A DNA stretch of 64,000 nt from the NCBI RefSeq assembly GCF_013200955.2, contig NZ_CP053697.2, positions 3,968,001-4,032,000 on the forward strand, written 5' to 3'. The stretch comes from Pseudomonas campi (GTDB lineage Bacteria > Pseudomonadota > Gammaproteobacteria > Pseudomonadales > Pseudomonadaceae). Of the stretch, positions 3,338 to 36,450 are shown piece by piece. The notes under the pieces were generated by a model. That model did no database searches, was not told where the DNA came from, and saw only the letters and a program-made list of their open reading frames with translations. The position numbers and the translations under genes are program-made. How positions within the stretch are numbered: position 1 is the stretch's first letter; each line of letters opens with the position of its first letter.

Positions 3338-4255
3338 TCACTCGCCGGACGGGCCGGCAAAGTAGGCCTTCTCACGCTGGATGCGCGCCTTGAACAACGG
3401 CGCCAGCAACTTCTTCAACAGGGCACTGAGCGGCACCACGGTGACGATCAGGCACAACAGGAAAACGATATAGACAACCAAGCCCACGCTACGCCGGCGG
3501 CTTTGCTGCGGGCCGAGGGCGGCGAGCAGGCGGCTCCACAGCTGGAAGCTGCGGTTGCCGACCTTCTCGCTGGCAATCAGCTTCTCGTCGATCTTCACCG
3601 CGCCCAGGCCCTTGAGCATCGGCTGCTCGATCGGCAGCCCGTCATGCGTCAGGCGCTGCGCCATGGCCGCGCCGAAACGGCTGGCGGCGGCGATCTCGGC
3701 CGGATCTATGCCGGCACGCGGCACCCAGCTGTAAGATTTCTGCCGACCGGTGAACAGCCACAGCGGGGTAGCCAGGAAGCTTGCCGCGGTGCCGCAGGCG
3801 TCGGTCAGGGCGATGTTGTCGACCAGCCGCGCGCCCAGTTCGGCGAGCCGCACCTTGACCTTCTCCTGGGCCATCAGCCACATGTTGCGGCAGCCGATCA
3901 GGGTCACCACCGGGCTGCCCTGGAGCAGGCGCGCGGCCTCGGGCGAGGCGAGGAAGCTGGTCAACGGCAGCGACGGTGAGAGGAACCACACCTGGTAGGC
4001 AAGGATCACCAGGTCGTAACGCTTGCCGGCATCCACCGCCAGCGGCAGCAGTGGCTGCGGACGCTGCAGCACGGTTTCCGGGAAGATGCGGAAGAAACCG
4101 AGGAACGGCCAGGGGAAGGGAAAGGGCTGCGCCGGCTGCAAGGCGAGGAAGTCCACCTGGATATCGCTGCACGCCTGCAAAGGCGCACATACCGACTGCA
4201 CCAGCCGATCGAGCTGGCCGGTTTGCGAAAAATGGACCACCAAAACCTGGCGCAT
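3338..4255 (-). CDS. darA: DarA-like dialkylresorcinol condensing enzyme
   Basis: A 305-residue protein starting MRQVLVVHFSQTGQ, a flavodoxin-like beta strand and turn that opens the DarA family. A hydrophobic stretch near residues 260-282 (SVGLVVYIVFLLCLIVTVVP) predicts one C-terminal membrane segment. DarA condenses two acyl precursors to a cyclohexanedione or resorcinol precursor in flexirubin-like and dialkylresorcinol pathways. It is first in a strand-consistent set darA-darB-unknown-btrH, with 13 bases to darB. No darC-like aromatase is seen in the window. The gene is divergent from a DUF2141 gene with 32 bp between starts. Confidence 0.75.
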   Translation of the reverse strand: MRQVLVVHFSQTGQLDRLVQSVCAPLQACSDIQVDFLALQPAQPFPFPWPFLGFFRIFPETVLQRPQPLLPLAVDAGKRYDLVILAYQVWFLSPSLPLTSFLASPEAARLLQGSPVVTLIGCRNMWLMAQEKVKVRLAELGARLVDNIALTDACGTAASFLATPLWLFTGRQKSYSWVPRAGIDPAEIAAASRFGAAMAQRLTHDGLPIEQPMLKGLGAVKIDEKLIASEKVGNRSFQLWSRLLAALGPQQSRRRSVGLVVYIVFLLCLIVTVVPLSALLKKLLAPLFKARIQREKAYFAGPSGE

Positions 4256-30885: not shown

Positions 30886-31782
30886 ATGGCCACCGCCAAC
30901 CCGCAGCGCGGGTATCTGCTGGGCATCATCGCCTACACCATCTGGGGTCTGTTCCCGCTGTATTTCAAGGCAATCCAGAACGTGCCGGCGCTGGAGATCA
31001 TCGTCCATCGCGCGCTGTGGTCGGCGCTGTTCGGGGCCGCGCTGCTGCTGGTGTGGAAGCATCCGGGCTGGCTGCGCGAACTGCGTAGCAACCCCAGGCG
31101 CCTGGGCGTGCTGGCCATCAGCGGCCTGCTGATCGCCAGCAACTGGCTGGTCTATGTGTGGGCGGTGAACAACGGGCGCATGCTCGAAGCCAGCCTGGGC
31201 TACTACATCAACCCGCTGATCAACGTGCTGCTCGGTATGCTCCTGCTCGGCGAACGCCTGCGCCGCCTGCAGTGGCTGGCCGTAGGCCTGGCCGCGCTGG
31301 GCGTGCTGCAGCAGTTGTGGCAGGTCGGCAGCATTCCCTGGGTCTCGCTGGTGCTGGCGCTGACCTTCGGTTTCTACGGGCTGATCCGCAAGCAGGCGCC
31401 GGTGGCCGCCCTGCCCGGCCTGGTGGTGGAAACCTGGCTGCTGCTGCCACTGGCGCTCGGCTGGCTGCTCTGGCACCCGGCGGCCATGAGCACGCAAGGC
31501 GCATTCTGGAGCACCTCAGAGGCGCTGTGGCTGATCGCCGCCGGGCCGATCACCCTGGTGCCGCTGCTGTGCTTCAACGCCGCCGCACGCCATCTGCCCT
31601 ACACCACCCTGGGCTTCCTGCAGTACCTGGCGCCGACCCTGGTGATGCTGCAGGCGATCTTGCTGTTCGACGAGCATCTCGACCCGAGCAAGCTGCTGGC
31701 CTTTATCTGCATCTGGGCCGGGCTGGCACTGTACAGCCTGGATATCTGGATCAGTCTGCGGCGCCGCGGACAGAGCCTCTAA
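30886..31782 (+). CDS. rarD: RarD, EamA-family membrane transporter
   Basis: A 298-residue protein with ten predicted membrane helices in two EamA repeats; it starts MATANPQRGYLLGIIAYTIWGLFPLYFK, the RarD family hallmark, and ends LYSLDIWISLRRRG. Substrate unknown (named for a chloramphenicol-sensitive phenotype). A possible -10 TAGAAT lies at 30844-30849. A REP hairpin begins eight bases after the stop. Confidence 0.92.
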   Translation: MATANPQRGYLLGIIAYTIWGLFPLYFKAIQNVPALEIIVHRALWSALFGAALLLVWKHPGWLRELRSNPRRLGVLAISGLLIASNWLVYVWAVNNGRMLEASLGYYINPLINVLLGMLLLGERLRRLQWLAVGLAALGVLQQLWQVGSIPWVSLVLALTFGFYGLIRKQAPVAALPGLVVETWLLLPLALGWLLWHPAAMSTQGAFWSTSEALWLIAAGPITLVPLLCFNAAARHLPYTTLGFLQYLAPTLVMLQAILLFDEHLDPSKLLAFICIWAGLALYSLDIWISLRRRGQSL

Positions 31783-31789
31783 CACTGCT

Positions 31790-31840
31790 GTAGGGCGGGT
31801 GAAACCCGCGCCGGGGACACGCGGGTTTCACCCGCCCTAC
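31790..31840. repeat. REP-like hairpin, GTAGGGCGGGTGAAACCCGCG family
   Basis: Perfect 21-bp arms GTAGGGCGGGTGAAACCCGCG and CGCGGGTTTCACCCGCCCTAC around a nine-base loop, directly after rarD. It may act as a transcript stabiliser or Rho-linked terminator. Confidence 0.85.
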
Positions 31841-31910
31841 ACAGCCCCACCGATTGAGCAAAAAACACCCACCCCGCCGCACCCCGCGCCACTGCTCACG
31901 CTGCGCCAGT

Positions 31911-32070
31911 CATCCCCGCCTTATCCACAGAAGCATCCCCGGTCTTTGTGCACAACGTATTGAAACTGCTGGTTTTTTAGTCAGCCACCGAGAACCGGCG
32001 GGGCACTAGGGGTGGCGCCGTCACTCCCCAGCTTATCCACAAGGCCATCCCCGCAAATCGGGGATATCAC
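31911..32070. repeat. DnaA-box module, copy 1
   Basis: Directly repeated at 32196-32355. In order: CATCC, perfect DnaA box TTATCCACA (31921-31929), AGAAGCATCCCC, palindrome TTGTGCACAA (31946), GAAACTGCTGGTTTTTTAG (31962-31980), stem CGGCG/CGCCG (31996-32020) with GGGCACTAG in its loop, CTCCCCAG, second DnaA box TTATCCACA (32033-32041), and hairpin ATCCCCG/CGGGGAT (32047-32065) ending GATATCA. No credible reading frame. Possible DnaA-titration or replication-control locus, or a pair of structured RNAs. Confidence 0.8.
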
Positions 32071-32195
32071 CGTGCAGCCAACTGAGCCGACACCTGTGCG
32101 CCAACGGCCTGGCTGCCCAAGGCAGAGCCGTCGCGCAGTCGCTCAGAAAACGCTCAATCCCACGTAACCCACAGCAGCCGGTGCCTGGCGTCGTT

Positions 32196-32355
32196 CATCC
32201 CGTGGTTATCCACAGAAGCATCCCCTGCCTTTGTGCACAACATCCGGAAACTGCTGGTTTTTTAGGCACTTAAAGAAAAGCCCCGGGGCACTAGTGCGTG
32301 CGCCGGGGCTCCCCAGTTTATCCACAGGTCCATCCCCGGAATTCGGGGATATCAG
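32196..32355. repeat. DnaA-box module, copy 2
   Basis: Same order and spacing as copy 1, offset by 285 bp: DnaA boxes at 32206-32214 and 32318-32326 (112 bp apart in both copies), TTGTGCACAA at 32231, GAAACTGCTGGTTTTTTAG at 32247-32265, GGGCACTAG at 32286, and hairpin ATCCCCG/CGGGGAT at 32332-32350. The central stem has changed to AGCCCCGG/CCGGGGCT (32279-32310), so pairing is kept while sequence is not. The 125 bp between copies (32071-32195) shows nothing recognisable. Confidence 0.8.
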
Positions 32356-32390
32356 AATCTGCCGACGATCAAGAGGTCGTAGGCAGATTC
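32355..32390. terminator. long hairpin abutting the stop of the ACT-domain gene
   Basis: GAATCTGCC-GACGA ... TCGTA-GGCAGATTC, touching the stop at 32391. No T-run, so intrinsic termination is doubtful; it may block 3' exonucleases. Confidence 0.4.
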
Positions 32391-32909
32391 TCAGGGGTCG
32401 ACGCGCAGGTTCAGCTCCACCATCAGGTCATCGGCGAGGTTTTCCAGTTTGTCGCGCAGCACATCCAGCGACAGCGTCAGCGGTACCGCCAGCACCGCTT
32501 CGGCGTGGAACAGCGGTTCGCTGCTCATCGGCGCGGGCGCCACTTCGGTGGTCAGGCTTTCCAGGTTGACGCCCTGCTCGGCCAGCAGGCGGGTGATGTC
32601 GCGGACGATACCAGGGCGATCGTTGCCGACCAGGTCGAGGAGGATGGGCTTCCAGGTGCAGGATGGCTCGATGCCGCTTTCCGCCACCAGCACGCGGATG
32701 CCCTGGGCGTTCAGGGCCTGCAGCGACTCGACCAGTTCGTCGTAGCCTTCCGCCGGTACCGCCACGCGCAGGATGCCGGCGAACTGCCCGGCCATGCGCG
32801 ACATGCGGCTCTCCAGCCAGTTGCCGCCATGGGCGGCGATGCACTGGGCGATGCGCTCGACCAGGCCCGGCTGGTCCGGGGCGATTACCGTGAGTACCAG
32901 ATGATTCAT
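32391..32909 (-). CDS. GcvR-like protein with two ACT domains
   Basis: A 172-residue protein with tandem ACT domains: residues 3-75 (LVLTVIAPDQPGLVERIAQC, GGNWLESRMSRMAGQF) and about 90-170 (LDLVGNDRPGIVRDITRLL, GVNLESLTTEVAPAP). This matches the glycine cleavage regulator GcvR and its Pseudomonas homologues, which sense glycine-type ligands and act through a partner. No DNA-binding domain is present. From memory it corresponds to PA0484. Confidence 0.85.
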   Translation of the reverse strand: MNHLVLTVIAPDQPGLVERIAQCIAAHGGNWLESRMSRMAGQFAGILRVAVPAEGYDELVESLQALNAQGIRVLVAESGIEPSCTWKPILLDLVGNDRPGIVRDITRLLAEQGVNLESLTTEVAPAPMSSEPLFHAEAVLAVPLTLSLDVLRDKLENLADDLMVELNLRVDP

Positions 32910-35934: not shown

Positions 35935-36450
35935 GCTTCTGGTTTCGCCTCCCGGCGAGTTACTTTCTCTTTGCTCGCGCGAAAGAGAAAGTAACCAAAG
36001 AGAAAGCGCGCCCGACATCCGGCCCCGCCTGCGGCGGGGTTCCCTACCTCCGGTGCCGCTCCGGGGGCCCGGCATACACGGGCCATCCATGGCCCGTTAT
36101 GCCTCTCGCCGCATCCCTGCGGCTCGTCCCCCTACGCAACACCTCCAGTCGGCCTCCTGACGGGGCTGGGCTCCGAGTGGCCTGATGCTTTTCCAGACGC
36201 AGAACTTCCAGGCAACACCAAACGCCCCGTGCAGAAGGGCGAGCGGAATCGTTGCGTAAGGGGTTGAGCGACATGGATGTCGCGAGAGCGCCGATGGGCC
36301 AGGGATGGCCCTTCGGCGCGGGCCCCTGGAGCGACGATGGAGGGAGCGGACCCGGAGCGAAGCGTAGGGCCGGATGATCGGGGAAAGCGTTTTTGCTTAC
36401 TTTTTCCGCGTTTGGAAAAAGTGAGTCGCCCGGGAGGGCGAAACCAGAGC
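35935..36450. repeat. about 516-bp imperfect palindrome with terminal inverted repeats
   Basis: Ends GCTTCTGGTTTCGCCTCCCGG (35935) and, inverted, GCTCTGGTTTCGCCCTCCCGG (to 36450). Each end carries its own hairpin: GTTACTTTCTCTTT/AAAGAGAAAGTAAC (35959-35995) and CTTACTTTTTCC/GGAAAAAGTGAG (36396-36425). Inner blocks also mirror each other, such as CCTACGCAAC (36131) and GTTGCGTAAG (36251), giving a common centre near 36193. No credible gene inside. Similar intergenic repeats occur in other Pseudomonas, from memory. It makes up most of the 989-bp gap after glcB; 36451-36657 shows nothing recognisable. Confidence 0.75.

Follow-up and report, generated by a model that had tools for sequence, protein, structure and literature searches.

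The rarD-gcvR intergenic region

The DNA considered here, referred to as the window, is a stretch of 64,000 nucleotides comprising positions 3968001-4032000 of the complete 4,436,925-bp genome of Pseudomonas campi. Two direct copies of a non-coding module of about 165 bp (about 31905-32070 and 32190-32355) are located between the convergent rarD and gcvR-like genes; aligned at an offset of 285 they agree at 128 of 170 positions, and the likeness between them fades beyond about 31905-32070. A preliminary description of this DNA, made from its letters, had reported two direct copies of about 160 bp, 285 bp apart, between rarD and a GcvR-like gene, and this was borne out. No GcvR equivalog above its cut-off was obtained for the gcvR-like gene at 32391-32909. 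Because both genes are convergent, the module is not their promoter region, and a promoter role for either of them was rejected. A long inverted repeat, GTAGGGCGGGTGAAACCCGCG...CGCGGGTTTCACCCGCCCTAC, lies directly past rarD at 31790-31842 and could represent either a terminator or a repetitive palindrome. For the whole window Rfam gave a single match above the gathering score, a TwoAYGGAY RNA (RF01731) at 36065-36130 on the minus strand. The features of the region are listed below in window coordinates.

30886-31782, plus strand: rarD, EamA transporter (TIGR00688, above cut-off), convergent neighbour
31921-31929, plus strand: copy 1, strong DnaA box 1 (TTATCCACA), with a partner at 112/113 bp in relatives
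31933-31941, plus strand: copy 1, putative weak DnaA site GCATCCCCG, 12 bp from box 1
31946-31955, minus strand: copy 1, the palindrome TTGTGCACAA, possibly a weak DnaA site in inverted orientation
31953-31965, minus strand: copy 1, IHF-consensus site (TTTCAATACGTTG, one mismatch to WATCARNNNNTTR) at the fixed offset +32
31973-31978, minus strand: copy 1, T6, read as A6 on the minus strand; A-tract next to the IHF site and 60 bp ahead of box 2
31996-32019, no strand: copy 1, weak central stem around GGGCACTAG, structure poorly conserved
32033-32041, plus strand: copy 1, strong DnaA box 2
32047-32065, no strand: copy 1, ATCCCCG/CGGGGAT inverted repeat with the inverted half-box GGATA
32206-32214, plus strand: copy 2, strong DnaA box 1
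32231-32240, minus strand: copy 2, TTGTGCACAA
32238-32250, minus strand: copy 2, weakened IHF site, two mismatches (three to the stricter WATCAANNNNTTR)
32258-32263, minus strand: copy 2, T6/A-tract
32279-32310, minus strand: copy 2, strong hairpin AGCCCCGG..CCGGGGCT followed by TTTTC on the minus strand, probable terminator of the gcvR-like gene
32318-32326, plus strand: copy 2, strong DnaA box 2
32332-32350, no strand: copy 2, ATCCCCG/CGGGGAT inverted repeat
32391-32909, minus strand: ACT-domain gcvR-like gene (PF13740), convergent neighbour and anchor of the comparison

Within the window the DnaA box TTATCCACA is confined to four positions, 31921, 32033, 32206 and 32318, always on the plus strand, against an expectation of 0.08, and none of 100 shuffles contained four such boxes. 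Both copies thus hold two perfect boxes in the same direction and exactly 112 bp apart, as had been claimed. A comparison of box density with the genome background, recommended in the preliminary description, gave 29 boxes in the whole 4.44-Mb genome versus 8 for the reversed pattern, and four of the 29 fall within 406 bp. The common offsets from box 1 are likewise confirmed in both copies: TTGTGCACAA at 31946 and 32231 (+25), GGGCACTAG at 32001 and 32286 (+80), the second boxes at +112, and ATCCCCG..CGGGGAT at 32047 and 32332 (+126).

Conservation of the module in Pseudomonas

The module beside gcvR is kept by most Pseudomonas species examined. To avoid selection by the module itself, 80 titled loci were picked by the GcvR-like protein alone; 65 of them contain a pair of perfect boxes spaced 112 or 113 bp, eight (P. 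alcaligenes, P. subflava, P. jinjuensis, P. panipatensis and others) have degenerate and often multiple copies, and in seven, for example in P. resinovorans, the module is absent. In a set of 134 gcvR-anchored loci, some of them from the same genome, a spacing of 112 bp between neighbouring boxes was counted 75 times and one of 113 bp 43 times, with 163-266 bp where modules are in tandem. The proposed conservation of the 112-bp spacing in relatives holds in the form of 112 or 113 bp. A single module is the usual state, and tandem copies are found in relatives of the window's species.

For finer comparison 111 distinct modules (L001-L141) were collected, defined by two perfect boxes 112/113 bp apart and a TTT filter which dropped none, so that the invariance of the boxes among them is by construction. 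All of these modules adjoin gcvR except one (L050), which has rarD and no gcvR within reach. Neutral change was gauged on 42 four-fold gcvR sites from 88 of 106 loci (the other 18 were left out, their gcvR start not being located), with a mean pairwise identity of 0.59 and a 95th percentile of 0.85; 47 of the 130 non-box columns of the module lie above this percentile. The conserved blocks are ATCCCCG at +14, TTTGTG..CAA at +24, TGAA at +40, T6 60 bp before box 2, a run ahead of box 2, and GGATA after it. ATCC is present at the offset of the putative weak site GCATCCCCG in 97/111 modules, with columns 14-20 near invariance, TGTGnnnAA at +26 in 109/111, TTTTT exactly 60 bp ahead of box 2 in 108/111, and GGATA at box2+29 in 101/111. 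The earlier idea that fixed spacing betrays a selected nucleoprotein site is supported both by the spacing and by conservation above that of four-fold sites.

The sequence model R1, derived from 41 diverse modules, matches 339 of 398 genomes of the genus at E<=1e-15, by a hand count that includes partial matches (e.g. G134) and with a cut chosen by eye once the values were known; a separate count of 335/398 takes in matches inside coding sequence. Among the 59 genomes above the cut 58 have a gcvR match, and of 30 loci examined in this low-scoring group none holds a complete module, 10 match in the right half and 20 do not match; rarD was not found nearby in three of these 20. It can be said that the module was lost in several lineages and is therefore dispensable over evolutionary time. 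In the ten right-half loci (L200-L202, L206, L209-L211, L215, L218, L220) all that stands beside gcvR is the region of box 2 with the GGATA half-box.

Half-modules are also found elsewhere, at 4047069-4047140 of the window's genome (L003, L149) and in relatives (L029, L030), and comprise one TTATCCACA, an ATCCCCG-like block and an inverted TGTGCATAA-like site. In the P. alcaligenes/P. panipatensis group several degenerate modules or part-modules share one intergenic region (L066, L067, L084, L098, L110, L112). Among 390 genomes of the order 21 match R1 at E<=1e-6, 12 of them from the same genus with the window's own genome included. Three of the nine others, G518, G490 and G565, represent another genus of the family with R1-like DnaA-box sites, and neither gcvR nor rarD was found near their matching loci (L162-L164). 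Listings of open-access papers, to which the search was confined, showed no report of the site, or of DARS, in Pseudomonas.

The IHF-consensus site between the boxes

The most informative part of the module is the conserved IHF-consensus site, a predicted binding site that is absent from the preliminary description. It occupies the minus strand at a constant +32 from box 1, with at most one mismatch in 96 of the 111 modules (29 of 41 when thinned to <86% identity), and at any other offset or strand the consensus is matched with at most one mismatch in no more than 2/111. Anywhere between the boxes WATCARNNNNTTR with 0-1 mismatch is present in 98/111 modules versus about 9.6/111 in shuffles, the latter being an approximate dinucleotide shuffle with the coordinate shifted for the 113-bp class; the fixed-offset control keeps relatedness and is the stronger of the two. 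At least two mismatches are noted in 15/111 modules and also in copy 2 of the window, which has two against one in copy 1, and in all four two-pair loci examined (L001, L062, L063, L064) the gcvR-proximal copy has the worse site.

An A-tract stands 5' of the IHF core by 7 nt (68/111) or 8 nt (41/111), an arrangement that is that of lambda H'. The one-base difference between the 112-bp and 113-bp classes sits between the IHF core and the A-tract, and hence most modules share the same distances from box 1 to the IHF site (32) and from T6 to box 2 (60). Genes for IHF alpha and IHF beta are both present in the genome, each above its NCBIfam cut-off, as is one for a second DnaA-domain protein of the size of Hda.

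Resemblance to E. coli datA

In PMC5742627 datA is described as needing two strong boxes and a weak box in one direction together with a single IHF site, and the IHF bend as joining boxes 2 and 3. The MG1655 datA locus (L142) has TTATCCACA at 3745 on the plus strand, a perfect IHF consensus at 3810 on the minus strand and TTATTCACA at 3907 on the plus strand, which by our own assignment are read as box 2, the IHF site and box 3. The Pseudomonas module is similarly non-coding, with two same-direction boxes flanking one opposite-strand IHF consensus and with further putative weak boxes; of the features of datA it shares the same-direction strong boxes and, by consensus, the single inter-box IHF site. 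Its conserved weak-site-like blocks at +12, +26 and box2+29 might correspond to the low-affinity box 7 that datA needs for its activity. The two differ in that box and IHF core are 65 bp apart in datA and 32 in the module, and box and box 162 bp in datA and 112/113 in the module. Moreover, the Pseudomonas boxes point toward dnaA (68/68 genomes among the matches listed) whereas those of datA point away from oriC, and tandem copies are present in some Pseudomonas species.

Among the matches listed, 68 single-contig genomes allowed the distance from module to dnaA to be expressed as a share of the genome, most genome sizes being rounded to 0.1 Mb. The median among these listed matches is 8.9%, with 67 of the 68 between 6.4 and 11.7% and one at 17.9%, and the module is on one arm in 58 of them and on the other in 10. 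E. coli datA lies about 10.1% from oriC, on what we take to be the oriC coordinate, and proximity to oriC is thus common to both, a position which is consistent with datA and not decisive, because conserved gene order could explain the distance. The module is not oriC or a copy of it, in agreement with the preliminary description: dnaA is 415 kb away, and a separate DnaA-box cluster adjoins it.

Sequence homology to datA is not established, since R1 finds no match in the E. coli datA locus (L142); the best it gives among three E. coli loci is a partial match to the DARS2 region (L144, E 0.0003). Neither queG nor rsgA, the neighbours of datA, is present in the window, orn gives a weak 26% match 16 kb away, and no glyVXY-queG neighbourhood or sequence similarity marks an orthologous locus. 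Sequence and gene order being unlike those of datA, the module is spoken of as working like datA and is not filed as its orthologue.

Taken together, the evidence speaks for a DnaA-IHF nucleoprotein site under selection which, judged from predicted sites, looks and lies like datA, and the datA-like candidate of the preliminary description gains support from the predicted box-IHF-box layout, the fixed spacing and the position. That the module is a chromosomal DnaA-IHF control site working like E. coli datA is given a probability of about 0.57; binding of DnaA and IHF, binding at the weak sites, looping and ATP hydrolysis at the module are what we infer. DnaA would bind the two same-direction strong boxes and spread to the weak sites beside each, and a bend put by IHF into the intervening DNA would bring the two DnaA groups together. 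ATP-DnaA assembled in this way would, as at datA, hydrolyse its ATP and be kept from oriC, delaying a second initiation, and the site would be near enough to oriC for duplication early after initiation. The module of the window is doubled, with the better IHF site in copy 1 and the probable gcvR terminator in copy 2. DnaA-box clusters of Bacillus subtilis and Streptomyces coelicolor resemble the Pseudomonas module in being such clusters; they repress untimely initiation and are termed datA analogues in PMC10950094.

Alternative explanations

A rather unlikely but not far-fetched alternative is passive titration, in which several bound DnaA molecules lower the free pool, no ATP hydrolysis is stimulated and IHF only tightens binding. 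The clustering of strong boxes and weak-site-like blocks near oriC would suit it, and PMC12371093 argues for titration of DnaA by the E. coli chromosome, counting datA and the DARS loci among the titration loci as well. Nevertheless, titration alone needs neither a fixed 112/113-bp spacing nor a fixed IHF offset nor a constant distance of 60 bp from T6 to box 2.

The hairpins of the module bear on two further readings. The claim that the central stem stays paired despite sequence drift does not hold well genus-wide, where covariation is marginal and the central helix is paired in 53% of cells. The named stems have 60% of cells paired against 29-45% when slid, a value reached by 6/500 shuffles, and their covariation score is reached by 25/500; pairs changed on both sides are no more frequent than in shuffles (271/500 reach the count), and the RNAalifold consensus structure contains no compensatory pair. 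Compared with shuffles, copy 1 folds with a z of -0.58 and copy 2 with -3.48, and the copy 2 hairpin (32279-32310) has a z of -4.83, an MFE of -29.0 and a T-rich tail on the minus strand. Some relatives also have a strong central hairpin with a T-rich minus-strand tail; the central hairpin has a z below -1 in only 18/41 modules, and many lineages do no better than shuffles. The simplest reading is that the copy 2 central stem is probably the gcvR terminator on the minus strand; a consensus terminator scan did not call this hairpin.

It is conceivable, if improbable, that the module is a transcription barrier at which DnaA, IHF and lineage-specific terminators stop read-through between rarD and gcvR. 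This is in line with the convergent 3' ends, with the T-tailed hairpins of copy 2 and some relatives, and with the stop of transcription by IHF at datA in E. coli, mentioned in PMC10950094. A barrier leaves the paired boxes and the tandem amplification unexplained, however, and in 17 of the 30 low-scoring loci rarD and gcvR are separated by 4-166 bp with no module match, which argues that no barrier is needed there.

The possibility of a DARS-like DnaA-reactivating site, raised in the preliminary description, appears still more improbable. The module resembles DARS1 and DARS2 as a non-coding DnaA-box cluster, its DnaA boxes and IHF site recall DARS2, which requires IHF according to PMC4245941, and box 1 (+) with the inverted weak site at +26 recalls DARS boxes I and III. 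A DARS core, defined as box I (+), box II (-) at +14 and box III (-) at +26, a pattern matching both DARS1 and DARS2, is nevertheless found nowhere in the 64-kb window, where the inverted box II at +14 is lacking. The same genome has three such cores at other loci, 2832982, 3646836 and 3647354 (L185, L166), and DARS identity of the module was rejected on these two grounds, geometry and the cores elsewhere. The last two cores are 518 bp apart, immediately downstream of a LonB-like protease gene.

Across the genus a DARS core was found in 195/199 Pseudomonas genomes, mostly once and mostly elsewhere than at the module (reversed control, 0). For 31 sites in 25 genomes the distance to dnaA is 23.7-35.7% in 27 cases, 17-18% in three and 13.5% in one, the three genomes with sites at 17-18% including that of the window; the E. 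coli distances are 32.9 and 20.6%. Beside gcvR a DARS-type core, consisting of a strong box and an inverted box, is located at L111:4530-4559 and L160:1626-1655 (G175), which lends the DARS-like reading some colour and indicates that datA-like and DARS sites are not cleanly apart everywhere.

Finally, the twin regulatory RNAs or structured transcript proposed earlier are hardly credible, for the folding of copy 2 and the pairing of the named stems are all that speak for them, whereas copy 1 folds no better than its shuffles, RNAalifold found no compensatory pair, the module has no Rfam match, no sigma-70-like promoter was found in 31700-32500, and the terminator accounts for the stem.

Significance for the control of replication in Pseudomonas

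In E. coli the datA and DARS loci help to time the start of replication. It may tentatively be proposed, with more doubt than confidence, that Pseudomonas has the full E. coli-type set of DnaA-switch sites at similar relative distances from oriC, and that the brake arose twice or diverged beyond recognition. The compared distances are about 9% for the datA-like site and mostly 23.7-35.7% for the DARS cores in Pseudomonas, and about 10, 33 and 21% in E. coli. Since the datA-like site has no detectable relation to datA in sequence or synteny, the brake would have arisen twice or diverged with its architecture and place kept.

The conserved module together with the DARS-type cores makes the generality of the DnaA ATP/ADP switch testable in another order of bacteria, and natural losses, halved modules and tandem copies are ready comparisons between species. 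The layout suggests that Pseudomonas may restrain the replication of its chromosome by means of a datA-like site.
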